The position numbers and the translations under genes were made by a program. 44,350 bases of DNA, taken from IMG/VR virus record IMGVR_UViG_3300030419_008194, positions 1 through 44,350 of that record. The stretch is one strand, 5' to 3'. Source of the DNA: a virus. Below the pieces are notes generated by a model. The model saw only the letters and a program-made list of their open reading frames with translations, searched no databases and was not told where the DNA came from. Positions 1,570-43,730 of the stretch are shown one piece after another; within the stretch, counting starts at the first letter, position 1; each line of letters starts with the position of its first letter.

Positions 1570-4500
1570 ATGGCTACGGATAAAGTAACAGTAGATCTAG
1601 AGTTGCGAGCTAGGCAAGCTTCTCGCGAAGTAGATCGCCTTAACCGGCAATTCGAAAGGCTGCGCAAAACAGCTTCCGGTATAGAATTTGGAGGGAAGGG
1701 GGGCGGAGATAAGGTTCGGGCACTTGGCACTGGCCTTTCTAAAGCCACTGTTAAAGCTGACGAATTTAATAAATCTCTCGAAGCTTCTAATGCCCGCGTT
1801 ATCGCCTTTGGTGCTTCTGCCGGTATAATAATGCAGATAGATAGAGCTTTTAAAGCTTTGATAAGCTCCGCGATGAAAGTCGAGAAAGCTATGATGGACG
1901 TTAATGTCGTCATGCAGGTCTCTAACAGGGAGCTGGAAAAATTTGGCAAGGGGATGTTTAAGGTAGCTAAAGAAACCGCTCAAGGTTTTGATACCGTTGC
2001 GGAGGCTTCCACTGAACTAGCTAGGCAGGGTCTAGGAATGGAGAAAACCCTACTGAGGACAAAGGATGCATTGATCCTCACTCGTTTGACGGGAATGAAC
2101 GCGGCAGATTCTGTTAAATCTCTTACTGCCGCAGTCAACTCTTTTAACAAAGAAGGAGTTACGTCCGCTCAAGTAATTAATAGAATGTCGAAAGTGGACG
2201 CCAAGTTTGCTGTTAGCTCAGAAGACTTGGCGAAATCTATTGGTCGGGTAGGTGCTTCTGCTCAATCAGCTGGAGTTTCCATGAACGAATTGATGGCTAT
2301 AACTACAGCTGTCCAACAAAGAACCGCTCGAGGTGGTGCCGTTATCGGTAACGCATTCAAAACTATTTTTACCCGTTTACAAAGAAGTGACGTTAAAAAG
2401 CAATTGAAAGATTTAGGGGTTGCGGTAACAGGAATGAATGGGGAAATATTATCCGGGATACAAGTTCTACAAAATTTGGCGGATAATTTTGATAATTTAA
2501 GTAAAAGTCAGAAAGCTTCTATAAGTGAGCAGGTAGCAGGTGTTTTCCAAGTTAATATTTTAAAAGCCGCTCTCGCTGATTTATCTCAAGAAACTTCCAA
2601 TTACAGAGGAGCTTTAAGGGCAGCTAATAGCGCCACCGATGAAGCGTATCAAAAGAACGTAAAATTAAATCAAACTCTAGACGCTTTAGTCAATAGAACA
2701 TTAGCCAACTTAACTAAGGCTGGATCAGATATAGGTGGGGCTACGTTAGTGCCCGCTATATCGAAAGTGTTAAATGCCGTTAATAGTATCATAGATTCTT
2801 TTTCTGAAGGGGGAAGATTTGAGGAATTTGGTAAAACGGTAGGAGCTGATCTCTTAAAAGGGATAGGAAATACAATTGCTGGACCCGGTCTCGTAGTTAT
2901 AGGTGCAGTGGTGACGAAGTTGGGCATCCAATTAGCAAAGTTCACAGGTAAAGCTTTCATGGATGTGATGGGGATAAATAAAGCGACTCAACAAAGGATA
3001 GCTTTAGAGGAGGCAGTTATAGCTCATATTGCTGCAGAGCCTGCACTCCTTGCTAGGGTTCAAGCGGGCACAGCGGGGATTTTAGCTACCGAACAAACTA
3101 TTTTGGCAACCATAAAAGCTCAAGCTATAGAGAGAGCGAGGATGGCGGCAGTAGCGGCCCCGATAGCTGGAGCACTTTACGGAAGAGGGGCAAGAGTTGG
3201 CCCTGCGGGCGGAGTCAGCATGAGGGGCGCTCCCGGAGGGGCGCAAGGTTTCGTTCCTAATTTTGCCAACGCTAGTTCAGAAAGAGCTGCCGCAGCGGCA
3301 GGAGGATATAGGGCTGGAGCTATAAGGACGATGAGTCAACCGGGAGCTGGCACTATGATGTATAATTCCGCCGAAACTGTAAAACGTTTTCCCGGAATGT
3401 CACAATCCGCTATTATGCCGCCTAAAGGTAGTGCGGCGGGGTCTAATTATAGATCCGCTTTTGGCGCAGCTCACGGATTCGACCCTTACGCAGCCGGAGG
3501 CTTCATACCTAATTTTAAAAACATTGATGTTAAACCCTCACATCAAGTTGGGGTAGTTTTGGGGTCGGGTCCGGAAAAGGCAACAGATAAAGATTATACT
3601 CAATTACTTTTTGGGGACAAAGGAATTAAAAAAATTGCTAACGATAAGAGGCTAGCTAGGTTCAAAGCGGCCTACAAGGCAAACAGACTTGTAGACAAGA
3701 TAAACCCAAATAAGCCAGCAAATCCCAGACTTCAGATTAGGGATATAGCTACTCGCGGCATCTTCCCATTAAAATCACAAGACTTAGAGGATTTAGGTGA
3801 AGGAGCCGCATTCGATGACGAATTCGATAATTTATTAGATGATGGATTGGGAGATTTCGGCGCTAGAATAAGAAAAGAAATATTTCCTAAATCTTCCGGT
3901 AAAAAAGTTAGAGGAATTAGTAAATTTTTAGGTTCAGACGTTAGAGGTAATGTTTTTGAGGCTTCTTTGCGTGGAGCTCTAAAACAAAATCCTAAATTAG
4001 TAGAAGGAGCTGGCAAGCAGGCATCTTTTGATTTTAACCCTAACGCTACGCCAGATGCAGAATTACTTAGGCTCTTTTACCCTAATGAAGAAAGTCTGGA
4101 AAGGATCGAAGCTAAGATTAAAGAAAAATCTGCAACCAATATAGTAAGTAAATACGCTAACGAGTTCGGAGCCGCTGATTTTGCAGGGGCTATAAGGTCG
4201 ATTGGTAGAAACTACAAAATTCTACCTCCAAGGAAAGGGGGTAAAGCGTCTGGGTTTGTCCCCAACTTCTCTCCTTTGACTGATGCAGTAGGTAGAGAAT
4301 TAGCTGCAGGAGTTCCGGCTTCAGCGATAAGGGTTGGTAGTAGTTCAGCTTTAAAAAGCGCAAGAAATCCCGCTGGAATGGGAGTATATAATACTATTGA
4401 TGAACCGATGGGACTAGGCCAAGGAATAAATAGGTCTCGCTCTCAAGGCATGAATCCTAAGACCCATGGTGCTGCTAGGGGCTTTATTCCGAATTTTCAA

Positions 4501-7500
4501 GAGACACAACTAGAGCTTGATTTTGAGGAAAATACCAAAGGAGTTAAGAAGAACACGGGAGCAGTACAAAAGCTCACCAATCAGTTGAAAAAACTAGGGG
4601 GAAAAGTGAATCCCGGTGCTGCACTTGCTACTATGTTTGTAGTTCCCACGGTGGCTCCAATGGTGAGCAAGACATTCACGGATGATCCAAAGAAGCAAGG
4701 CGCGTTTGAAACAGGAGTAACTGAAGGCGTTACGGCGGGAACCGTGGCTGGAGTGGGTATGGCAGGCTTAGGGGCTCTGGGGGGAAAACTAGGTATAGGA
4801 CTTCTTGCAGGAGCATCAACGATTGCTGCTCCTGTTGCTATTGGTGCAGGTTTGCTTTACGGAGTCTATAAAGGTGTTGAGGCTTTAACTGCGGAAGAGG
4901 AGCCTCTAACTCAGGCTTTAGAAAAGCAAAAAGAAGTCGTTATAACATTATCTCAAGTAGCCTTTGAGGCCGCAGAACAGATAGGTGGCCTTAACGAAAA
5001 ATTAAGCGCTTCCGCTTTTTTAGCGGCGAAAGAAGCTGCTATCAAAAAGGTTACTTCTCCAACTGGCCCTAAAGTTCCAGATGCAGACCTTAGCCCTGTG
5101 ATGAACGCTTCCAACCAGAAGGAATTGGATGATGCTTTAAACAACCTTGGTCAGAGGGCACAGTTTAGGGAGAGTTTTCAGGCTTTAAGTACCATTAGGA
5201 AAGATCGAACCGGAAAGGACATAAGTAACTTCAACTTAAGTGAAGGTTTTGTTGAAAGAGATACTAAAGAACGTCAGAAGCTACTCGACCCGATATTATC
5301 CTCTGCGCGTGTGCGTGTGATCAGCGCCCGGCGCGCGCTGAAAACACATGAGATAGAGCGAATGCAAGACCGTGGGCGGCGTGTTGTCGACACCGATGCC
5401 AGTGGGGAAAAATTGGCGAGACTCCAAGCGGAAGTAAATGAAGCCGAGCGGAGGCTCGACAAAGTCATAAATCAGCCGAATCCCCAAGGTAAGAGACTAG
5501 CTGGAAGAACGCTAACGGCAATGGAGGGCCAAACTAATTTTGGCGTCGAGTCTTTTTTTAGAAGGCAGATTGAACAAGGGAAAGGGTTTTTTCAGACAAA
5601 GGGGGACGCGGAGTTTGCTAACTCTGTGGCGGGACGAATGGCTCTATTAACAGGCGGTAAGGAAAGCGATTTTGAAGGCTTTGCAGACGAATTAGCTACG
5701 AATCTCTCGGTAGAGCAATTTACTGCATTCAACCAAAAACTTTTTGAAGCGATGACTAATTTTGAACTTTTTGGAAAAGTTCAAAAAGATGTGGCGGACT
5801 TGGAGGCGAAAAACAAAAATAAACTTCAAGAACAGCTTGCACTAAATAATAAAATTATCACCAGTGTACGAAACCTTAACGAACAACTTGTGCATCAAGG
5901 AAGAGCCGCTGATCAAGCGTTTAAATTTGAACAAGAAGCATCAAAACAAAGATTAGCATTACTTAAACTGGATCAACAAATGGCTGTAGTCGAAGCTTCG
6001 AGTATTAAAACTAAAAAAGAGCTTATCCTGCAAGAGAAGAAGCAGGCTAAAACAACTAACGAGAGAACAAGAATAGAAGCTGAAACAGTAGCTCAGGCTA
6101 AAAGAGATAGAGATATCACTAAAACTGGACTTACGGCAGGAACAACTGCGACTCAAGAAATACTTAAACTGTTTGGAGAAGGTAAACTTGCCGGTACGGG
6201 CGCTGAAAATAGGGAAGCGGCTATAAGGGGCGCGCAAACTTTGGTTGATGAAATGACCACGCAATTCAAAATGCTTGACCCAGCCGAATTTGCAAAGTTA
6301 TTGGCCGAGAAGATAGCCGAACAAAATACTTTACTAGCCAAAGCGTCTCTAGGGTTTGAAGGGCTGAACCCGCAAGATGCTACAGCCGCTGCACAAATGT
6401 TGGCTGCATTAAATGCTATCCTCCCAGATATTGTAAAAGCAGAAGCAGAAAGAAGAGAAAAAGCAGAAGAAGCTAATCAAAAAGAAGGCCGCAATAATGA
6501 GCTTGCGGATAAGAGCTTTGAGCTTGCGAAAAAAAGGTATGAAAATGATGTAAAAATTAATGAAGCGCAAAGAGAAACGTTGAGAGCGGCGGAGATGTTA
6601 AAGTCAATGCTGGTAAACGCAGAAACTACGCGAAGAAATAGGCAAGGTAGAGCTACCGCTGCGCAGGCAAGATCAGCTGAAAGAACCATGTTTGAAAGGC
6701 TGTCTACTACCTCCATGACAGACAGAGAGATTCGTAAAGAGTTTGGACGCGACGCGGCACGTATGGTGAAAGGGATGGATCGTAGTCCTCGAGCTATAGA
6801 CGCTATGAGGAGAGAAAATGAGCTACGCTATCTAGAAGAAGACTTTACTGGAAGTAACAGAATAGGTTTACAAGGCATATTGGATGATTTTAACGATTTC
6901 CAAAAAGGATTGCAGTCGGCACAGTCTCACGTCGTCTCTTTTAGTCAAGCCATGCAGGCATCGGCAGCAGTAGCTCAAGGTGAAGCTGATTATAGAGCGG
7001 GTCGTACTACTTCAGACTCAGTGAGAGCTTTGCGCGCTGCTAATCGTTTAGCCAGAAGAAGAAGAGGCGAAGGGACGACGGAAGACATGGGAGCAGCATT
7101 TTCGGACCAATTCCTTTACAATGCCCAAGATTATGGGGACGATTTTGAAGCGGGAATGGTTCAGACCGCTCAAACTATCCAAAGTTCTTTTGCTGAAGCG
7201 TTTAAAAATATTGCAAGTGGCTCAATGAAAGCGGGCGAAGCTATTGCAACCATGGCAACAGGAATTCTTGACACAATATCTGATGTATCTACGCAGATGT
7301 TTACGAAGATTATGTTTTCTAAAATGGGTTTCGGGTCCGACTTCGGTCAAGGAGGTTTGGTCCCCGGATACGCAGGGGGAGGAGTTGTTGTTGGTGGATC
7401 GGGAAGAAAAGATGACGTCATGGCGATGATGCAAGGCGGAGAATATGTAATTAAGAAATCTGCTGCACAAAGAATCGGATATGATAAACTGAATGCTATT

Positions 7501-8571
7501 AATAATGGTATACCCGGTTACGAAAAAGGAGGCTCAGTAAGTGGAGAGTCCGGAGGTTCTCTAGCTAAAGTGGGGTTAATTGCCGCAGGAGCCAGCGCTT
7601 TATCTGGTTTTATCAGTAAGTCTCAACAATCCGAGAATAAACCTCTTCCAATGCGTAATTACGGACACGGAAGAAATGAGTTAGGGTTCTTGGGGGGAGC
7701 TGATCCGGACGCTGGTCAAGTCGATAGCATTTCAGGCGCAGGGACTGGAGCTTCCGTTTCTCTTTCTAAGGGTTTTGTTTATTATACTCGTGATCCCCAA
7801 ACTGGGAGATTGATTAGTGAGAAAAGAAGGCCTACTTCAGGGCGATTTGAAGTTAGTAACGCTTTATCATTAATAGGTAGATTAAATGAAGATGACCCTC
7901 AAACATCACGCATGTTTACTAAAGAGCAAAATCTAGCTAAATATCTTGATTATGTGCGAGGAGAAAAGCAGAGAAGGAAAGATGTAATTTCCGCTGCTAA
8001 AAAACAAAAAAGAGGTCAATTAATACAGGCTTACGCTAATGCTGCAATGCTTATTGGCGGTTCCATGTGGATGAGTAGAGGGAGTGGAAGTGGGGGAGGA
8101 AAAGAATACGGAGCAGACAGTCTTTGGGGATTCGGTAAACCACCAGAAAAAGCCGCGGGAGGAGCTATAGGAGGAGGAACTCCAGCTATGTTAACTGGAG
8201 GAGAATTTGTAATGAGTCCGGAAGCAGTTCGGACCTATGGAACAAGCTTTATGTCTGAGTTAAACCGTGGAAATGTTCCGGGTTACGCAGCAGGCGGATC
8301 GGTTGGAGTTGCTCCGGTGGGTGGAGCGGGAACTACTTTAGGCGGTAATACGACAAACAACGTGAAGATAAGCGTTAATGTTGACAAAGGAGGTCAAGTG
8401 GACGCGCAAGTAGGCACTGCTTCACCTAAGGATCCCGAATCAGGAAGTCGAGATGAAATTGCTGAAGTGGAGAATAACAAGGCTTTCGGCAAAGCTTTAC
8501 AGGCAGTTGTTATAGATGAGATTGTTAAACAACAAAGGCCCGGTGGACTACTTAACGCAAATACTACCTAG
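1570..8571 (+). CDS. Phage tail tape measure protein with GF[IV]PNF repeats and an embedded nuclease-like segment
   Basis: At 2333 residues this is the largest gene. The first ~350 residues match the TP901-type tape measure family: helical, with a conserved run of Ala/Ser-rich helices around 'LARQGLG' and 'IGRVGASAQSAGVS'. It sets tail length and passes through the tube during DNA entry. Four GF[IV]PNF motifs occur at residues 560, 644, 895 and 971. Between the second and third lies a segment with E797, D821 and E847-x-K849, in the order expected of a PD-(D/E)XK fold. Hydrophobic Gly/Ala-rich stretches at about 420-455 and 1018-1107 could insert in membrane. Coiled coil dominates about 1390-1720. 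[VI]PGY motifs with Gly-rich flanks occur near 1928, 1980 and 2236. The start ATG has a weak AGGA site. It converges on the next minus-strand gene with five bases between. Confidence 0.93.
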   Translation: MATDKVTVDLELRARQASREVDRLNRQFERLRKTASGIEFGGKGGGDKVRALGTGLSKATVKADEFNKSLEASNARVIAFGASAGIIMQIDRAFKALISSAMKVEKAMMDVNVVMQVSNRELEKFGKGMFKVAKETAQGFDTVAEASTELARQGLGMEKTLLRTKDALILTRLTGMNAADSVKSLTAAVNSFNKEGVTSAQVINRMSKVDAKFAVSSEDLAKSIGRVGASAQSAGVSMNELMAITTAVQQRTARGGAVIGNAFKTIFTRLQRSDVKKQLKDLGVAVTGMNGEILSGIQVLQNLADNFDNLSKSQKASISEQVAGVFQVNILKAALADLSQETSNYRGALRAANSATDEAYQKNVKLNQTLDALVNRTLANLTKAGSDIGGATLVPAISKVLNAVNSIIDSFSEGGRFEEFGKTVGADLLKGIGNTIAGPGLVVIGAVVTKLGIQLAKFTGKAFMDVMGINKATQQRIALEEAVIAHIAAEPALLARVQAGTAGILATEQTILATIKAQAIERARMAAVAAPIAGALYGRGARVGPAGGVSMRGAPGGAQGFVPNFANASSERAAAAAGGYRAGAIRTMSQPGAGTMMYNSAETVKRFPGMSQSAIMPPKGSAAGSNYRSAFGAAHGFDPYAAGGFIPNFKNIDVKPSHQVGVVLGSGPEKATDKDYTQLLFGDKGIKKIANDKRLARFKAAYKANRLVDKINPNKPANPRLQIRDIATRGIFPLKSQDLEDLGEGAAFDDEFDNLLDDGLGDFGARIRKEIFPKSSGKKVRGISKFLGSDVRGNVFEASLRGALKQNPKLVEGAGKQASFDFNPNATPDAELLRLFYPNEESLERIEAKIKEKSATNIVSKYANEFGAADFAGAIRSIGRNYKILPPRKGGKASGFVPNFSPLTDAVGRELAAGVPASAIRVGSSSALKSARNPAGMGVYNTIDEPMGLGQGINRSRSQGMNPKTHGAARGFIPNFQETQLELDFEENTKGVKKNTGAVQKLTNQLKKLGGKVNPGAALATMFVVPTVAPMVSKTFTDDPKKQGAFETGVTEGVTAGTVAGVGMAGLGALGGKLGIGLLAGASTIAAPVAIGAGLLYGVYKGVEALTAEEEPLTQALEKQKEVVITLSQVAFEAAEQIGGLNEKLSASAFLAAKEAAIKKVTSPTGPKVPDADLSPVMNASNQKELDDALNNLGQRAQFRESFQALSTIRKDRTGKDISNFNLSEGFVERDTKERQKLLDPILSSARVRVISARRALKTHEIERMQDRGRRVVDTDASGEKLARLQAEVNEAERRLDKVINQPNPQGKRLAGRTLTAMEGQTNFGVESFFRRQIEQGKGFFQTKGDAEFANSVAGRMALLTGGKESDFEGFADELATNLSVEQFTAFNQKLFEAMTNFELFGKVQKDVADLEAKNKNKLQEQLALNNKIITSVRNLNEQLVHQGRAADQAFKFEQEASKQRLALLKLDQQMAVVEASSIKTKKELILQEKKQAKTTNERTRIEAETVAQAKRDRDITKTGLTAGTTATQEILKLFGEGKLAGTGAENREAAIRGAQTLVDEMTTQFKMLDPAEFAKLLAEKIAEQNTLLAKASLGFEGLNPQDATAAAQMLAALNAILPDIVKAEAERREKAEEANQKEGRNNELADKSFELAKKRYENDVKINEAQRETLRAAEMLKSMLVNAETTRRNRQGRATAAQARSAERTMFERLSTTSMTDREIRKEFGRDAARMVKGMDRSPRAIDAMRRENELRYLEEDFTGSNRIGLQGILDDFNDFQKGLQSAQSHVVSFSQAMQASAAVAQGEADYRAGRTTSDSVRALRAANRLARRRRGEGTTEDMGAAFSDQFLYNAQDYGDDFEAGMVQTAQTIQSSFAEAFKNIASGSMKAGEAIATMATGILDTISDVSTQMFTKIMFSKMGFGSDFGQGGLVPGYAGGGVVVGGSGRKDDVMAMMQGGEYVIKKSAAQRIGYDKLNAINNGIPGYEKGGSVSGESGGSLAKVGLIAAGASALSGFISKSQQSENKPLPMRNYGHGRNELGFLGGADPDAGQVDSISGAGTGASVSLSKGFVYYTRDPQTGRLISEKRRPTSGRFEVSNALSLIGRLNEDDPQTSRMFTKEQNLAKYLDYVRGEKQRRKDVISAAKKQKRGQLIQAYANAAMLIGGSMWMSRGSGSGGGKEYGADSLWGFGKPPEKAAGGAIGGGTPAMLTGGEFVMSPEAVRTYGTSFMSELNRGNVPGYAAGGSVGVAPVGGAGTTLGGNTTNNVKISVNVDKGGQVDAQVGTASPKDPESGSRDEIAEVENNKAFGKALQAVVIDEIVKQQRPGGLLNANTT

Positions 8572-25810: not shown

Positions 25811-26085
25811 GGTGCTGAGGCGTGACATTCGTAGCATTTATTTTGAATAATCCAATGGTCGAGCATAAGCTCTTGAGTGGTATAAGAGGGTTCTATTTCT
25901 GTAAATCCATACTCATCGTATCCTTCCGTATAATAAAAGATAGTTAACTGGCGACGATAATTGTGGCATTCGGCAAGTTGCGCTGCCTGCTTCGCTTTAT
26001 TTAAAGCGGAAAGTAGCATGGCTGTCAATATTGAAATTATTGATATAGTTACAAGTAGCTCCACAATAGTATAACTCCTATTCAT
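25807..26085 (-). CDS. Small pseudopilin-like protein
   Basis: 92 residues from the ATG at 26085, which overlaps the preceding pseudopilin stop by eight bases. The N-terminus [20 protein letters not shown] has the prepilin features: a short basic leader, Glu at +5 and a hydrophobic helix of about 20 residues. The residue before the cleavage site is Ser instead of the usual Gly. The C-terminal part is short, with two Cys (NKCYECH) that may form a disulfide. It probably anchors in the inner membrane. It is much shorter than most pseudopilins. Confidence 0.65.
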
Positions 26086-27058
26086 AATAGGGGCTCCATG
26101 TTGGATGGTGCCCCCAGCTATCGTTCCAGTACCAACCCCAAGAGTCATATATTTTACCTTCTATTTCTCTCGTATTCCATTGCCTAAAATATCTTGATAC
26201 ACCGCTATGAACTTTTTGCCAAGAGTGGTTATTAGGGTAAGGCTTAGTAGCCCTGTCGCTTAACCATTTTATATCTCGGTTATTGGGACTGACTACAAGA
26301 TCTTTTATTGTGGTTGGGTTCTGAACGGCTTCAGGAATGACTTTAGTATCTTCTTCTAGCCATCTCCTAAATTCAACATGAGCGTCTACAAAAGAGACTA
26401 CCGAACCGTTGTTGTGATAGACTCCCGGCCAATCCATAGAGAAAGCGCTTTCCTTTCCGGTTAGGGTAGGTGGTACTCTAAAATTACCAGCGTTTATAGA
26501 TTGAGGGGGCATTTCAATGAAACTAAAAATAGAAGAAGGATCTTTTACGTCTGCGTAAGTATGGTAAATTTTATGTTGAGTATCTGCTTCAAAAGGCCAT
26601 CCAGACCATCCTCCTACAAAAATATTTATACTATAAGAGCGAGGTCTTTTTCTTGTAACGTTGACCCAATTAGTAGCGCCCTTAGCTTTTTCTTGCCACA
26701 TTACCACGGACTTATCTCCGGGGCATCCAAAAATACCCATTCCAGCATAAGGCTTGAGCGGCGACCAAAACAATGGCCTGTCAGTTTGCCCCCAAGCTCC
26801 GTTTCCACTCATGCTGTCTGCTACCCATGCCCACATTCCGCTAGGTTCAGCTCTCCATGCTGAGGCGTAAGGAAATCTATCTTCGTGGTCGGCAGCGAAT
26901 TCAGCGTAAGCTAAATTAAGTTGGCGCTGGTTATTAATGCATTGAGCTTGCCATCCCGTTTGCCTAGCAGAGCTTAAAGATGGAAGTAGTAAAGCCATGA
27001 GAATAGCGATTATGGCAATCACTACCAGCAACTCAATAAGGCTAAACCCCCGGTTCAT
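26078..27058 (-). CDS. Prepilin-type N-terminal methylation domain protein with H-X9-D motif
   Basis: 326 residues. The N-terminus [20 protein letters not shown] is a textbook type IV prepilin/pseudopilin signal, with Gly at -1, Phe at +1 and Glu at +5. Near residue 240, [12 protein letters not shown] matches the 'H-X9-DG' processing-associated motif, with Ala in place of Gly. This architecture is greatly expanded in Planctomycetes, Lentisphaerae and Verrucomicrobia, which hints at the host. The rest has many Trp residues and '[10 protein letters not shown]'. Head of a five-gene overlapping cassette, with a GTGTAA-type element directly upstream. Confidence 0.85.
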
Positions 27059-30487: not shown

Positions 30488-31504
30488 TTAAAAGTCATCT
30501 TCAAGGGAACCCGATTGTTGATATTCTCTGACTCGGCGTTCAAAAAAGTTACCCATAGCTTGAACATCCACTACTTCTCCGAGCCAAGGGAAGGGGTTTT
30601 TATCACTAGGAAAGCGATATTCTAACCCAACTCCTTCCAGTCTTCGGTTGCCTATATAATGCATATAATCGACAAACATATCAGCATTAAGGCCTAGAAT
30701 GCCTCGCGGTAATACATCTTTAGCGTAAGTTATTTCAAGTTCTACGGCCTTTTTAATCCATTCTGTAATTTCGTCTTGAAATGTTTTAGACCATATTTTT
30801 GGATTTTGCTCTATAATCTGATTAATTACGTAGGTTCCGAATTGAATGTGGGAGCTTTCGTCTCGTAATGTGTATTTTATTTGATCAGCAATGCCTTGCA
30901 TTTTGTTTTGTCGGCCCAAAGCTAAAAGCATAGCAAATCCGCTGAAGAAAAATATCCCTTCGCACACAATCCAGTAAGTAATAAAATTTCTTAAAATTTC
31001 TTTTTTCCCTTCTTGGGTATGAGGATTGAAGTCTGGCCGACTCAGGTCAGTAGTAATCTCCATTAAGAAATCATCTTTAGCTTTAATTGAGGGAATGTTT
31101 TCGTAAGCACGGTAAACTTCATCTATTTTAAGGCCCAAAGAATCGCAAATATAAACAATAGTAAGATTATGAAGGCTTTCCTCAAACGCTTGTCGTAAAA
31201 TATACTGGCGACACTCAGCGTCAGTAATATAGCGAAACCCGCTAAGCAAAAGATTATTACCAACAAGAGATTCACTCCCAGCAAAAAAGCCGAGTGAACG
31301 CTTGACCAAAAGTTTTTCATCATCTGTTATTTCTCCGTTTTTCCATTGTTTAATGTCTTCGGACATGGATATCTCCGTAGGCATCCAGTTGTTTGCGCAT
31401 CCTTTTAAGAATAAGTCCCACGCAGTTTTATGCTTGTGGGGGAGTATGCAATTTACACCTGCTATATCTTTCCCTAATATTTGTCCGCTTTTCGAGTCAC
31501 TCAT
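30488..31504 (-). CDS. nrdB: Ribonucleotide reductase class I small subunit, lacking the radical tyrosine (class Ic-like)
   Basis: 338 residues. The di-metal ligands are E78 (GFFAGSESLV), E109 and H112 (FEESLHNL), E182 (CEGIFFF), E216 and H219 (RDESSHIQF). The first ligand is Glu where standard R2 proteins have Asp. The radical Tyr, four residues after the first His, is I116 (H-N-L-T-I). Chlamydia R2, the class Ic type, has Glu at the former and Phe at the latter position, and uses Mn/Fe instead of a tyrosyl radical. The C-terminal SLEDDF tail should dock to NrdA. The ATG overlaps the glycosyltransferase stop by eight bases. Confidence 0.95.
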   Translation of the reverse strand: MSDSKSGQILGKDIAGVNCILPHKHKTAWDLFLKGCANNWMPTEISMSEDIKQWKNGEITDDEKLLVKRSLGFFAGSESLVGNNLLLSGFRYITDAECRQYILRQAFEESLHNLTIVYICDSLGLKIDEVYRAYENIPSIKAKDDFLMEITTDLSRPDFNPHTQEGKKEILRNFITYWIVCEGIFFFSGFAMLLALGRQNKMQGIADQIKYTLRDESSHIQFGTYVINQIIEQNPKIWSKTFQDEITEWIKKAVELEITYAKDVLPRGILGLNADMFVDYMHYIGNRRLEGVGLEYRFPSDKNPFPWLGEVVDVQAMGNFFERRVREYQQSGSLEDDF

Positions 31505-32264
31505 TTGGCGTATAGTAATTTGATTGTAGTTTTAAGTTGCCTATGTAGGTATTAAATCCGCGATGACCTAGGCTTATATCGGTCACAACGTTTATTTCTC
31601 CACCTAAAGATTTCCATAGTTTACAGAACCCGTAATCTTCGCTTTCGTATTTTTTAGTTTTTGGATTCACTTCACATCGAAAAATATCATAAAAATTATC
31701 TCCTGCCTCTACGTAACCATCAATATCGTTTGTATATTTTATATCAGGTCTAGCTGCAATTATTTTTTCTATACATTCGCGCTTTATAAGCATAAATCCT
31801 GTGGCTGCGTAATTAGCCTTTACAATATCTTGGGATTTAGCCTTCTGAATTTCTTCAGGGTTTATTTCTGTCGAAAAGTCAGTAGCAAGATGCCTCCAAT
31901 GTTCTGGGAATCTGCCAGTTGAGGCCATCGCTTCAATTTTTTGGCCATTAAAATACTTTTTAGGATATACTCCAACCACTACATCTTTATCCGCCTCAAG
32001 AAGTTTCATTACGTCAAACGCGGAAAATTGAGTGTCGGTGTCGATAAATAGTAAATGGGTATAATCCTTATTTAGCATAAAAGCCACAGAAGCATTTCGT
32101 GCTCTACTAATTAAGCTTTCAAACCATATAGAACGCAGTCCTATTCTGATACCCTTTTGCCTACATACAGACATTAGGTCAATAGTGCTCATCATATAGT
32201 CTGAGTGCACCATACCGGTATACCCGATAACAGGGTAAAAAATATTTACTTTAGAGTAATCCAT
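31497..32264 (-). CDS. GT-A type glycosyltransferase lying between nrdA and nrdB
   Basis: 255 residues from the ATG at 32264, which overlaps the nrdA stop as TAATG; a nine-base longer form is possible. The sequence 'SRARNASVAFML', then 'THLLFIDTDTQF' with the D75-T-D77 metal motif, and 'ISLGHRGFN' near the end match a phage GT2-like family. It probably transfers a sugar from a nucleotide-sugar. The acceptor is unknown. It is translationally coupled on both sides to the reductase genes, so it is made with the dNTP enzymes, although no role in reduction is evident. Confidence 0.75.
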   Translation of the reverse strand: MDYSKVNIFYPVIGYTGMVHSDYMMSTIDLMSVCRQKGIRIGLRSIWFESLISRARNASVAFMLNKDYTHLLFIDTDTQFSAFDVMKLLEADKDVVVGVYPKKYFNGQKIEAMASTGRFPEHWRHLATDFSTEINPEEIQKAKSQDIVKANYAATGFMLIKRECIEKIIAARPDIKYTNDIDGYVEAGDNFYDIFRCEVNPKTKKYESEDYGFCKLWKSLGGEINVVTDISLGHRGFNTYIGNLKLQSNYYTPNE

Positions 32265-34678
32265 TACTGACAAGCTTCGCAGGCCTCAGGGTTTGCAATA
32301 GAGCAAGCTACCTGTTCTTCTTCCGTATATTCTTTTTTCGTAGACTTTTCTACTTTCGACGCACCGCGATTACGCAGGTAGTAGGTAGTCTTGAGTCCCG
32401 CTTCCCATGCGGCCATGTAAATATCATTCAAATATTTTAAACTTGTTCCTTTGTTGTATAAATTGAAAGAAATGCCTTGATCAATCCATTTTTGTCGAGC
32501 CGCGTTGCATTCAATTAACTTAAACATATCACGGTCAAAAGCAGTCTTATATTTTTCGCGATACTTTTTAGGAATGTCAAGAAGCATAACATCGCCGTCC
32601 ACTTCCTTAACAGCTTCTGCTAACTGAGGGCTCCATAAGCCTTCCCTTTTCATATCATCTACAAACTGCTCATTAACAACGTAAAAGTTTCCACTCTTAC
32701 ATTCGTAAACAAACATTACTGAGAAGTTTGGTTCGATACTTTGCTCCACGCCGTTAATATACCCGATAGTGGCAGTGGGAGCGATGGCCATAGTGTTGCT
32801 GTTTCGCATTCCATATTTAGATATATGTTCCCTTACTTTTTTCCAATCAAGTTTTCCCCGAACGGGAGTCTTTGGAGATTTTTTTCTAAAATCTAAGAGG
32901 GCGTTATAAGTGTCAATAGGAAGCTGGCCTTTTTCCCAGAGAGAACCGGAGTAAGTCTTATAACTACCCCTTTCTCTAGCTAGCTCACTGGAGGAGAGGA
33001 TTGCGTTATAAGAAAAGAATTCTGTTAGTTCGTCTATAAATTTTACAGCTTTATCTGAATCATACTGGATATCAAGAATCTGTAAAACGTCATGGGTGGC
33101 CATCATGCCGAGCCCAATTGGACGATGCTGCATGTTAGCGTTCTCCGCTTCTTTAGTTGGGTAAAAATTCAAATCAATCACATTATCCAAAAGCCGGATG
33201 GCAGTTTTAATAGTCGAGGCTAAAAGATCTTTATTTAATCCATTGTCTTCAAGATGATTTTTTAAATTTACGCTTCCTAGATTACATACTGCTGTTTCTC
33301 CTATTTCTATTTTTTCTCCATCTTTATATTGAGAAGGTTTTGTGTGTAAAAGAATTTCGGTGCAAAGGTTGCTAGAATGAACCGTGCCTTGATGCTGATT
33401 GCTGTATCGGATATTAGAGGGGTCTTTAAATGTTACCCAAGGGTGGGAAGTTTCAAATAAAACCTTAAGCATTTTCTTCCAAAGCTCTTTAGCTTTTACC
33501 TTGCGGAAGTTTTTCAGAGTGCCTTCTTCGGCGTGCTTGCAATAATAATCGTAAGACTCTTCAAAGTCCTCTCCGTAAGCTTCATGAAGTTCACGGCAGT
33601 CAGATGGGCAAAACATATACCAGTCAGCATCTTCCTGTACTTTTTTCATGAAAAGGTCAGGAACCCATGAGGCAGTGTTCATATCATGGCAACGAAGTCT
33701 TTCGTCACCAGTGTTTCGGCGTAGATTTAGAAAGTCTTCAAAATCAAGATGCCAAGGCTCAAGGTAAGCGCATCCCGCGCCGGGTCTTTTACCGCCTTGG
33801 TTTACTGCAACGAGTGTGTCGTTGAGGATTTTGAGCCATGGCACAAGACCTCCAGAAATCCCGTTTGTGCCTTTGATAAAAGCCCCAGAAGCACGAAAAT
33901 TAGTAACATCAAAGCCAAGACCTCCGGCGTGCTTACTTTTGCGGGCTTCTTGCCAGACTCCTTCGAAGATTCCGTCGATACTGTCATCAAATGTATTTAA
34001 GTAACATGAACTTAATTGAGAGTGAGTAGTGCCACTATTAAATAAGGTAGGTGTGGAAGGAGTGTACAGCAGATTGCTAAAAAGGTTATAGAACTCAATG
34101 GCTCTTTCTTCTTTATTGTCTTCATTTAAAGCTAGCCCCATAGCAATCCTCATCCAGAAAGCCTGCGGAGACTCAATAATTTTATTATTAACGCGAATAA
34201 AGTATCTGTCTATTAAAATTTGTAATCCTAAATATTTAAATTTTTTATCTCGTTCAGGATCGATGGCTTCGGAAAGTTTTTTTAGGTCGTAGTCTAAAAG
34301 TCTAGGGCTTAGGACTTCATTTTTTACTAATTTTTTTACTCCTTGTACGAAGGATTTTTTGTACTGTAAATCGAAAGTATCAGAATCTACGCTCTCCCTA
34401 AAAACTTCTTTGTAAAGAGCGTTAACGGCAAGAGCGGAGGCAACGTTGCTGTAATTGGGTTCTTTTTCTATTTTAGCGCGAGCTGATAGAATAAGAGCTT
34501 CGTCAATTTCTTTGGTGGTTATTTTGTCGTAAAGCTGAAGTTGGGCGTCGAGTATTACTTCGCTGGCCGACACGTTATTGCCGTCAATACCTGCGCAAGC
34601 TCGGTAAACACACTTGTTTATCTTTTCGACATCGAATTCTTCTAGCTTACCGTTTCTTTTTTTTACTTTTATTTCCAT
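32264..34678 (-). CDS. nrdA: Ribonucleotide reductase class I large subunit
   Basis: 804 residues from the ATG at 34678; a GTG 18 bases upstream lies in the terminator-like hairpin, and with the ATG the catalytic numbering falls at C225, N437-x-C439-x-E441 and C465, almost as in E. coli. Residues 1-90 are an ATP-cone (KVKKRNGKLEEFDVEKI). The C-terminal 'TTYYLRNRGA' holds the paired Tyr of the radical path, and the tail ends in C-x2-C (CEACQ) for thioredoxin or glutaredoxin. It reduces NDPs to dNDPs with NrdB. It is first gene of the nrdA-glycosyltransferase-nrdB operon. Confidence 0.96.
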   Translation of the reverse strand: MEIKVKKRNGKLEEFDVEKINKCVYRACAGIDGNNVSASEVILDAQLQLYDKITTKEIDEALILSARAKIEKEPNYSNVASALAVNALYKEVFRESVDSDTFDLQYKKSFVQGVKKLVKNEVLSPRLLDYDLKKLSEAIDPERDKKFKYLGLQILIDRYFIRVNNKIIESPQAFWMRIAMGLALNEDNKEERAIEFYNLFSNLLYTPSTPTLFNSGTTHSQLSSCYLNTFDDSIDGIFEGVWQEARKSKHAGGLGFDVTNFRASGAFIKGTNGISGGLVPWLKILNDTLVAVNQGGKRPGAGCAYLEPWHLDFEDFLNLRRNTGDERLRCHDMNTASWVPDLFMKKVQEDADWYMFCPSDCRELHEAYGEDFEESYDYYCKHAEEGTLKNFRKVKAKELWKKMLKVLFETSHPWVTFKDPSNIRYSNQHQGTVHSSNLCTEILLHTKPSQYKDGEKIEIGETAVCNLGSVNLKNHLEDNGLNKDLLASTIKTAIRLLDNVIDLNFYPTKEAENANMQHRPIGLGMMATHDVLQILDIQYDSDKAVKFIDELTEFFSYNAILSSSELARERGSYKTYSGSLWEKGQLPIDTYNALLDFRKKSPKTPVRGKLDWKKVREHISKYGMRNSNTMAIAPTATIGYINGVEQSIEPNFSVMFVYECKSGNFYVVNEQFVDDMKREGLWSPQLAEAVKEVDGDVMLLDIPKKYREKYKTAFDRDMFKLIECNAARQKWIDQGISFNLYNKGTSLKYLNDIYMAAWEAGLKTTYYLRNRGASKVEKSTKKEYTEEEQVACSIANPEACEACQ

Positions 34679-34684
34679 TTGTAG

Positions 34685-34709
34685 AAAAAAATACACCCCA
34701 AGCGGGTGT
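34685..34709 (-). terminator. Rho-independent terminator or attenuator directly before nrdA
   Basis: On the minus strand ACACCC-GCTTG-GGGTGT forms a six-base-pair stem, followed by A and a run of seven T. The run ends six bases before the nrdA ATG (34678), leaving no room for a promoter. It is either a terminator for the small genes upstream with read-through into nrdA, or an attenuator of nrdA. Confidence 0.6.
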
Positions 34710-39408: not shown

Positions 39409-39714
39409 ATGTCGGACGAACAAAAGAACAACGACTGGAAAGAGCGCGAACTCGGCGCTCTTTGGGTAAAGAAGAGCCTTACTGGCACTCAGTACATGAC
39501 TGGACACATCGAACTAAAAGATGATACAGGCAAGGTCTCCCTCGTAGTGTTTAAGAATAAGCACAAATACAATGAAGACGGAACGATTTCCAACGAAAAA
39601 GCTCCGGACTTTCGACTGTATAAGAGTGAAGAACGAGAAAAAGGCGACACAAACGCTACCGCCGAGTCAAAACAGACTGCGGCGGCATCGACGGAGGAAG
39701 ACGCCCTCTTCTAA
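39409..39714 (+). CDS. Probable single-stranded DNA-binding-like or DUF736-type small protein
   Basis: 101 residues. The pattern 'ERELGALWVKKSLTGTQYMTGHIE' then 'SLVVFKNKHKY' and 'APDFRLYKSEE' resembles a common small phage OB-like family (DUF736-type). The C-terminus ends in 'STEEDALF', an acidic tail with a final Phe like that of SSB. Codons are richer in GC and better biased than those of its neighbours, and the promoter is the best in the window, so expression is probably high. Function is inferred and uncertain. Its stop overlaps the next start as TAATG. Confidence 0.6.
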   Translation: MSDEQKNNDWKERELGALWVKKSLTGTQYMTGHIELKDDTGKVSLVVFKNKHKYNEDGTISNEKAPDFRLYKSEEREKGDTNATAESKQTAAASTEEDALF

Positions 39715-40805
39715 TGTCCGATCTAGCTTTACATCTCCCGCTTAACGGTGTAAGCTTTGGTCAGGTTAGCACTGCCCTTCTTCGTGAATTTCACGAGAAG
39801 GGCGTGCAGCCTTTTTTATTTGCGATTGGTCCAGTAGATCTTTCGTCACAAGAAATTTCACCATCTTTAAACAAATGGATCCAAGAAGGGATAAAGAGAG
39901 CGTTTGAAAGTTACGACAGAAATACTCCCGTCTTCAAGCTGTGGCATTTAAATCACGATAGCCTTACCTCTTACGCCAAGGAACAAGTTCTTTTTACTTT
40001 TTATGAATTAGACTTCCCTACTTCCATTGAGGTCAATATAGCCAAAAACCAGAAAAAAATACTGGTCAGCTCTCGCTATTCTCAAGAAGTTCTTAAGAAC
40101 TACGGTGTCGACAATTGCCATTATATTCCCTTAGGTTTTGATAAGCATAATTTTCATGTAAAAGATCAGAAATACTTGGAAGGGCGAATAGTTTTCAACC
40201 TAACAGGCAAACTAGAAAAAAGAAAACATCATAAAAAAATTATCCGCGCATGGGTTAAGAAGTACGGCAATAACAAAGACTACTCCTTACAATGCGCTAT
40301 TGCCAACCCTTTTATAAAAGAAGCTGATTTCAATGCAATGATATCAGAAATCTTAGAGGGAAAAAAATATTTCAATGTGAATTTTTTAGGCTTAATGCAA
40401 AAAAATAGCCTTTATAATGATTACCTTAACTCTAGTGACATTATAATAGGTATGTCGGGAGCCGAAGGATGGGGGCTTCCGGAATTTCAGTCAGTAGCTC
40501 TCGGCAAACATGCCGTAATACTAAACGCTACGGCCTATAAGGAATGGGCAAACGAATCTAATTCATGTCTAGTGGAACCTTCTGGAAAAACTGAAGCAGC
40601 TGACGGTATGTTCTTTAAGAAAGGTGGACACTACAATCAAGGAAATATATTCGACTTTGATGAGGATGCCTTTATAGAAGGATGCGAAAGAGCGATTGAA
40701 AGGCACAAAGCTTCCGCGGTTAATGTAAACGGGTTAGAGCTGCAGCAGAAATACCCTTACTCCCAAACAGCAGATGCTATAATAGATTTAATGAAAGATG
40801 CCTGA
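39714..40805 (+). CDS. GT4-type (GT-B fold) glycosyltransferase
   Basis: 363 residues. The C-terminal half shows 'LTGKLEKRKHHKKIIRAW' and 'SGAEGWGLPEFQSVALGKHAVI', the retaining GT-B signature with the E-x-G-x-GLP element. The N-terminal domain has 'VSSRYSQEVLKNYGV' and 'IPLGFD'. It probably adds a sugar to a lipid-linked or protein glycan. It is coupled to the preceding gene by TAATG and overlaps the next gene by eight bases. First of four glycosyltransferase genes in a row. Confidence 0.88.
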   Translation: MSDLALHLPLNGVSFGQVSTALLREFHEKGVQPFLFAIGPVDLSSQEISPSLNKWIQEGIKRAFESYDRNTPVFKLWHLNHDSLTSYAKEQVLFTFYELDFPTSIEVNIAKNQKKILVSSRYSQEVLKNYGVDNCHYIPLGFDKHNFHVKDQKYLEGRIVFNLTGKLEKRKHHKKIIRAWVKKYGNNKDYSLQCAIANPFIKEADFNAMISEILEGKKYFNVNFLGLMQKNSLYNDYLNSSDIIIGMSGAEGWGLPEFQSVALGKHAVILNATAYKEWANESNSCLVEPSGKTEAADGMFFKKGGHYNQGNIFDFDEDAFIEGCERAIERHKASAVNVNGLELQQKYPYSQTADAIIDLMKDA

Positions 40806-42017: not shown

Positions 42018-42772
42018 TAGTCCGAGTTCATGGTAATTGCATCTACAATCTCCGACGGTTAGTTACTAGCGTTCTAGTTCAAAGCTATAAGAACTTTACT
42101 ATTCACTTAGCTATCGATCAAGGAGGTAGTCACGATTCTTATAAAGATATTGAAAAAGAGTGTTTGGAAATATCTAACGATCCCCTTTCTATATCTCCTT
42201 CTTGGCTAACTCAAGGAAACTCTCCTTCTTGCGTTAAATACTGGCCGAACAATGACGGGCGGCTCTATGCGGTAAGAAATACTTGCAGAATATTAGATAA
42301 GCTATCTGAAGAAGATAGTATCATAGGCGTAATAGATGCTGATGATCAGCTATGCGAAAGGAGATGTTTAGAATGGATAGCTTCCCTCTACCAACAAGGA
42401 GTAGGATGTGTTTGGACTAATAATATATGGGAACCTTATAGTATTAATATCTGTTCCGGGCCTTTAGATGATAGCGTGGATGTATATAAGCATCCATGGG
42501 TCAGCAGTCATTTCAGAACTTTTCCTTTATCTATTTATAAAAAAATAAATAAACAAAATTTTAAAGACTCGGAAGGCGGCTGGATGAGAAGATGCGAGGA
42601 TCAAACATTAATGCTCCCTATAATCAACCGACTTCATTTAGAAGGAAAGAGAACAATGAATCTAAATAAACCCTGTTATCTTTACAGGGGCTATCAAGAG
42701 ATAGGGGGAGACGCTCATCAATACCAGCAACAATTAGAAAAATTCATTAGAAATAGGGGATATATTGAATAA
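42002..42772 (+). CDS. GT2-type glycosyltransferase with no standard start codon; probable frameshift partner of the preceding gene
   Basis: The frame is open from about 41985 and the conserved N-terminus 'NIVVRVHGNCIYNLRRLVTS' begins at 42011, upstream of the first ATG/GTG/TTG-type start (TTG at 42164). GT2 motifs follow: 'NFTIHLAIDQGGSHDS', D-A-D-D at about residues 112-115 (metal binding) and 'GGWMRRCEDQTLM'. The coordinates assume an ATT start at 42002. The more likely route is a -1 slip at A AAT TTA (42005-42011), which joins it in frame to the upstream GT, giving a fused enzyme of about 550 residues. It ends overlapping the next start by eight bases. Confidence 0.75.
   Translation: MKFNIVVRVHGNCIYNLRRLVTSVLVQSYKNFTIHLAIDQGGSHDSYKDIEKECLEISNDPLSISPSWLTQGNSPSCVKYWPNNDGRLYAVRNTCRILDKLSEEDSIIGVIDADDQLCERRCLEWIASLYQQGVGCVWTNNIWEPYSINICSGPLDDSVDVYKHPWVSSHFRTFPLSIYKKINKQNFKDSEGGWMRRCEDQTLMLPIINRLHLEGKRTMNLNKPCYLYRGYQEIGGDAHQYQQQLEKFIRNRGYIE
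42005..42011 (+). other. A AAT TTA slippery heptamer (-1 frameshift) between two glycosyltransferase genes
   Basis: In the frame of the upstream gene the codons are TTA AAT TTA ATA TAG (stop 42015-42017). A AAT TTA has the exact X XXY YYZ form and is the same heptamer as Rous sarcoma virus gag-pol. A -1 slip reads AAA TTT AAT ATA GTA and enters the GT2 frame, which lacks its own start. No clear downstream pseudoknot was found by eye. Confidence 0.6.
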
Positions 42773-43730
42773 AAGTTTTTTTATAAATAATACGTCGCCT
42801 AGTGGAGGGCCGGGAGTGTTTGGCCATAGGCTAAAAGAAGAGCTCGTAAAAAGAGGAAACGATTTCACCCCACATAACCCAAGTAATTCGATTTGTATCA
42901 TACAAGGGAATTACTATCCTTCTTGCAAAAATATATTACGCTTAGATGGATTATATTTTGATTCCAATAACCCAAACAACGAACAATTAAATTCACCTAT
43001 TTTTAAATGTTATAAAGAGTTTGATCATATTGTTTTTCAATCAATGTTTGCTAAGAATATGTATGAATCTTTTACTGGCGTAAAAAAAGATCATACTATT
43101 ATTTATAATGGTATCAACCCTGACTTTAGGGAATACTCTCCTCATAATGCAAACGAAAGAGATCATTATTTCTTTCTAACTGGACTGAAGAAAAAGTTCA
43201 GGAAACTATTCATCGCTTCAGCTTCTTGGCGTAGGCATAAGAGGCTAGAGGAAACGATTCAAGCTTTTAAAAATAACAAACTTAAAGATTGTGCTCTTAT
43301 AGCCTTAGGAGGAGAAGAATATATTTTAAAAAATTACGGGCCTGAATGCGTGCCTGAAAACGTTTTCCTGTTTCCTATTTTACCCTTTTACAGCACTTCG
43401 GTTTTTTATTCTCTAGCGGACGCTATGATTCACCTTTGCATGTTTGACACATGCCCGAACTCCGTTATAGAGTCCCTTATATGTGGCACCCCAGTTCTCT
43501 GCTCCCACAACGGCGGAACCCATGAGATAGTAAGAGGCAATGGAGTAGTCGTTAAACTTGAAGAAGACTATTCCCCGGGAACCTACTACCCCTATTACGA
43601 CCCCCCAAAAATAGATATAGAAGCTATAGCCACGGGAGCTTTGGAAGCTGCTAAATGCCCCAAAAACTTCAGGAGAGAAGATTTAGAAATAGAAAATGTT
43701 GCAAAAAAATACGAAGATATAATGATATGA
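42765..43730 (+). CDS. GT4-type glycosyltransferase
   Basis: 321 residues from a TTG at 42765 overlapping the GT2 stop by eight bases; no ATG is near the conserved start (MNKSFFINNTSPSGGPGVFG). The sequence 'SASWRRHKRLEETIQAF' and 'DTCPNSVIESLICGTPVLCSHNGG' is the classic GT4 signature with E-x7-like spacing. It should transfer a sugar to a growing glycan. It overlaps the methyltransferase gene by four bases (ATGA). Confidence 0.87.
   Translation: MNKSFFINNTSPSGGPGVFGHRLKEELVKRGNDFTPHNPSNSICIIQGNYYPSCKNILRLDGLYFDSNNPNNEQLNSPIFKCYKEFDHIVFQSMFAKNMYESFTGVKKDHTIIYNGINPDFREYSPHNANERDHYFFLTGLKKKFRKLFIASASWRRHKRLEETIQAFKNNKLKDCALIALGGEEYILKNYGPECVPENVFLFPILPFYSTSVFYSLADAMIHLCMFDTCPNSVIESLICGTPVLCSHNGGTHEIVRGNGVVVKLEEDYSPGTYYPYYDPPKIDIEAIATGALEAAKCPKNFRREDLEIENVAKKYEDIMI

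Follow-up and report, generated by a model that had tools for sequence, protein, structure and literature searches.

The stretch of DNA analysed here (IMG/VR record IMGVR_UViG_3300030419_008194, positions 1 to 44,350; termed the window in what follows) is a virus fragment of 44,350 nucleotides in which lambda-type tail genes are present. Its open reading frame (ORF) at 1570–8571 encodes a tape measure protein, as judged by matches to TIGR01760 (E = 3.9e-37, 128.1 bits, above the curated cut-off of 28.8) and PF10145 (E = 2.9e-26). The middle of this protein carries a set of short motifs that a first-pass annotation, made from the letters alone, had read as the core of a PD-(D/E)XK nuclease embedded in a tape measure protein. 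The carrier was thus rightly named, and the motif positions and the numbering of E797, D821, E847 and K849 proved correct on a sequence check. The GFxPNF motifs that were said to bound the segment are also real; there are four of them, not the two claimed (Table 1). The segment from the second to the third matches no Pfam or PHROG family.

Near the C-terminus of the tape measure protein, PGYAxGG and GEYVI repeats (window 7363–7530 and 8278–8290) resemble a GFxPNF plus GEW module found in relatives, and the two may have a common origin. Elsewhere the window encodes small and large subunits of ribonucleotide reductase (30488–34696; PHROG E = 4e-73 and 1e-242), two glycosyltransferase-like proteins (39714–40805 and 42765–43730) and, on the minus strand at 26078–27058, a protein with a pilin-like N-terminus (PHROG pilin, E = 2e-5).

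Table 1. Features of the tape measure gene, in window coordinates; L002 and L047 are related loci
Feature	Residues	Position	Strand	Basis
Tape measure protein, 2333 aa		1570..8571	+	TIGR01760, PF10145, PHROG tail length tape measure
TP901-type tape measure domain	92-412	1843..2805	+	TIGR01760 match range
GFVPNF boundary motif 1	560	3247..3264	+	
Conserved 84-aa module upstream of cargo slot	560-643	3247..3498	+	82% identity to L002 and L047
GFIPNF boundary motif 2	644	3499..3516	+	
Variable cargo slot with nuclease-like domain	650-894	3517..4251	+	27% identity to L002 vs 65-82% upstream
Nuclease-like core	791-867	3940..4170	+	Profile match
RGNVFEAS	792-799	3943-3966	+	
E797, predicted helix-1 glutamate	797	3958..3960	+	Column 75 E / 3 D, n=78
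SFDFNP	819-824	4024-4041	+	
D821, predicted metal-binding aspartate	821	4030..4032	+	Invariant in 82-row alignment A6
ERIEAKIKEKS	844-854	4099-4131	+	
E847-A-K849, predicted (D/E)xK	847-849	4108..4116	+	Columns 77/77 D or E, 77/77 K
K861, helix residue after (D/E)xK	861	4150..4152	+	Column 66 K / 4 Q, n=70
GFVPNF boundary motif 3	895	4252..4269	+	
Conserved 'YNTIDEPMG' module downstream of slot	895-970	4252..4479	+	74% identity to L002; pattern search
GFIPNF boundary motif 4	971	4480..4497	+	

The layout of conserved flanks around a variable slot emerges from comparison with the relative L002. Its N-terminal part is 65% identical to that of the window protein, the 84-residue module ahead of the slot 82%, the slot itself 27% and the module behind it 74%; the comparison with L047 gives the same pattern. 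The tape measure beyond these modules is also divergent (22–27% identity). Since this region differs as much as the slot does, divergence by itself does not single out the slot; what does is divergence flanked by conserved modules.

Homologues were sought in several ways. When the whole protein was the query, two relatives came up: L002, whose segment at the equivalent place differs in sequence but bears these motifs, and L003, which lacks both the GFxPNF motifs and the segment. Pattern and alignment scans added many further tape measures. No match was obtained when the segment was the sole query of the close-relative scan or of searches of 50,697 isolated-phage genomes, and the tape measure pattern, used to scan genomes, hit six MAG contigs only. 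An iterated profile of the core, run on IMG/VR relatives, found 127 copies of the domain at 124 loci, with some loci being overlapping pieces of one contig; reduction at 80% identity left the 78 nonredundant homologues used to measure conservation. Tape measure signatures are present in the ORFs of 123 of the 127 domains, the other four ORFs being truncated ahead of the signature, and GFxPNF flanks the domain on both sides in 95. A further set, collected with the tape measure pattern alone, has 72 ORFs that extend beyond the slot, 65 of them with GFxPNF and 48 with the domain; because the pattern was derived from the window's own family, these two fractions describe that family and not tape measures generally.

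The putative catalytic residues are kept throughout. In the profile alignment of nonredundant homologues one glycine column is complete (78/78), the helix-1 glutamate column holds 75 E and 3 D, the acid and the lysine of (D/E)xK are each found in 77/77, and the column in the following helix is lysine or glutamine in 70/70 (66 K, 4 Q). The aspartate column reads 58 D and 10 E, with a one-position slip in some rows, the window's included; a second alignment, made with MAFFT from 82 rows including the window, has the glycine, aspartate and lysine invariant. The rest of the domain is 20–30% identical. Since the residues were named before any homologue had been seen, their conservation is a fair test. 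The first-pass annotation held that a lack of conservation among homologues would count against it; the opposite was found, with the named residues among the most conserved columns, and its PD-(D/E)XK-like reading is supported at the level of sequence. Finally, when the window is left out of the profile, its segment still matches at 30.2 bits, against at most 8.1 for 300 shuffled copies, 4.0 for any other part of the protein and 2.3 for the segment reversed.

The order E, D, (D/E)xK, K/Q, placed on helix, strand, strand and helix, is the textbook signature of PD-(D/E)XK enzymes. AlphaFold models the window segment weakly (pLDDT 67), with the same order of elements as in a confident model of the homologue L092 (pLDDT 88.4, pTM 0.80). 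The fold searches discussed here rest on the latter, those with the weak window model being uninformative. In the L092 model an N-terminal strand pair precedes a helix (110–131) bearing the glutamate; the aspartate lies just ahead of a short strand (149–150), the D-x-K is at a strand (168–171) and the lysine sits in a helix (177–209), with a further helix (155–162) between the aspartate and (D/E)xK strands. This predicted order, helix-strand-strand-helix with an extra helix inserted, is consistent with PD-(D/E)XK enzymes, and is compatible with their alpha-beta-beta-beta-alpha-beta core. No significant fold match was found for the L092 model in the PDB, searched twice, or in BFVD. Structure prediction and fold comparison, which the first-pass annotation had proposed as a check, therefore agree with it in the order of elements and fail to yield a solved nuclease; with no solved relative in these searches, the PD-(D/E)XK fold is consistent with the model but unproven. 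Mus81-Eme1 was rejected as a fold relative, since its two weak Foldseek rows have E above 5, the level of chance. A sequence search of the PDB gave chance matches only. Alignment of the domain with UPF0102, Mrr and PDDEXK_1 by hhalign stayed at noise level, a comparison that is uninformative because those known families also missed each other.

The slot is more elaborate in larger relatives. In tape measures of 2800–4000 aa it holds several GFxPNF-bounded modules, and the position of the nuclease-like domain among them differs from one relative to another. The window's slot has one enzyme-like domain; in the large relatives there are several candidates, recognized for the most part by motif only. 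A second domain, with an invariant GxxGE..D..ExK (alignment A8), is carried by eight of the large tape measures (L010, L011, L013, L014, L016, L017, L019 and L020), and its profile has a weak similarity to UPF0102 (YraN; E 2e-4, probability 47%, reversed control 0.45).

Other modules were noted in passing. One tape measure has a staphylococcal nuclease (SNase)-like module (L029:3260-3910:-; Pfam SNase E 0.08, below cut-off). P-loop modules lie inside the tape measures of L055, L057, L062 and L135 (P-loop match E 0.0065), and L055 also has a HAD-like module with DWDGT (6070-6534:-); P-loop and HAD-like modules together recall polynucleotide kinase-phosphatase. GHKL ATPase-like (E 8.5e-5) and GNAT-like (E 0.0015) matches, below curated cut-offs, occur in L065:4109-7741:- and L137:5331-8798:+, and the L065 tape measure also contains HEAAH, an HExxH motif. 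The motifs LYRGQ or LWRGQ followed by SFSTS, in an ADP-ribosyltransferase-like order, are found in L011:6678-7361:+ and L017:6321-6995:+; these two modules have no Pfam match.

We consider it probable, at somewhat better than even chances, that residues ∼650–894 are a fast-diverging cargo with a divergent, metal-dependent PD-(D/E)XK-like nuclease core, which the tape measure carries to or into the host and which cuts nucleic acid there. The active site would comprise E797, D821, E847 and K849, assisted by K861. Tape measures exit the tail with or before the DNA. The domain would travel in the tail lumen as a part of the tape measure, leave ahead of the DNA, and be brought to or through the inner membrane, where it could cut the nucleic acid of the new host, whether chromosome, plasmid or RNA, in the service of takeover or counter-defence. 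The GFxPNF motifs would be module boundaries, serving perhaps as hinges or processing sites. For phage lambda, a fusion to the inner-membrane protein ManZ labels the tape measure protein during injection (PMC13190303). Several points weigh on the other side: a folded nuclease may pass the tail lumen only if it is unfolded; the nuclease reading must accommodate a confident model with no significant fold match and a domain with no Pfam or PHROG family; and the tape measure beyond the slot diverges too (22%), so that rapid change is no peculiarity of the cargo.

Among other explanations, the one that survives best is still unlikely: the domain would be a PD-(D/E)XK-like nuclease whose substrate is the phage genome itself. 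It might, for instance, trim or hold the end of that genome within the tail, or work a single time during ejection, without ever meeting host nucleic acid. Confinement of the domain to tape measure proteins, which touch the leading DNA end, and the conservation of the flanking modules speak for it, whereas the divergence of the slot, the absence of the segment from L003 and the diverse modules of large relatives are more easily explained by an effector in an arms race than by a core step of packaging. Slightly less probable again is some other metal-dependent phosphodiesterase or phosphotransferase of new fold, which may act on nucleotides or defence signal molecules. A confident model with neither fold nor family match is what such an enzyme would give, but the residue order and its placement on helix, strand, strand and helix are those of the textbook PD-(D/E)XK signature. 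We think it very improbable that the segment is a non-catalytic structural remnant that spaces the tape measure or binds its chaperones: tape measures are scaffolds and the window segment is weakly modelled, yet the putative catalytic residues are nearly invariant in a domain that otherwise varies so widely. Regions of coiled protein rich in E, D and K can imitate the motif spacing, but a short motif arising by chance in a low-information protein is ruled out by the shuffles (best 8.1 versus 30.2 bits), the leave-out test and conservation in 78 nonredundant homologues.

Taken singly, enzymes inside tape measures, polyvalent proteins and members of the PD-(D/E)XK superfamily are all known. The tape measure of mycobacteriophage TM4 has an embedded peptidoglycan hydrolase motif that aids DNA entry and is dispensable for viability (PMC1796659). 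It resembles the window protein in having an enzyme domain inside a tape measure; the TM4 motif cuts the cell wall, whereas the window has a nuclease-like site, set in a variable slot that GFxPNF motifs bound. Polyvalent proteins of phages and conjugative elements are large, multidomain proteins delivered with DNA that bear enzyme modules against the host (PMC5512222). The carrier in the window differs in being a tape measure protein, and the word ‘tape’ is absent from the main text of that paper. With the PD-(D/E)XK superfamily (UPF0102/YraN, Hjc, Mrr, RecB) the window domain shares E, D and (D/E)xK followed by K/Q, and the predicted helix-strand-strand-helix; it differs in lacking any sequence or fold match and in the extra helix between the Asp and (D/E)xK strands. 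Bacterial polymorphic toxins likewise join a conserved delivery part to a diverging, exchangeable enzyme part, but the window's cargo is internal rather than C-terminal and has no identified immunity gene. The literature searched, which covered few subscription journals, yielded no report of a tape measure with a nuclease-like cargo slot.

The recurrence of this domain in the same slot across dozens of related phages suggests that bacteria receive enzymes from the tail itself. A broader proposal, to which we give rather less than an even chance, is that in a large group of tailed phages, uncultivated so far, the tape measure serves as a modular carrier of effectors, its GFxPNF-bounded slots holding exchangeable enzymes (two nuclease-like kinds; perhaps an acetyltransferase, an ADP-ribosyltransferase, a kinase, a GHKL ATPase and a staphylococcal-nuclease-like enzyme) that would be delivered into the host with the DNA. 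A nuclease-like site conserved in dozens of phages despite its changing surroundings makes it a testable idea that the tape measure is carried as far as the cytoplasm or into it. If true, phages would have an extra effector route, one that operates ahead of all phage gene expression.
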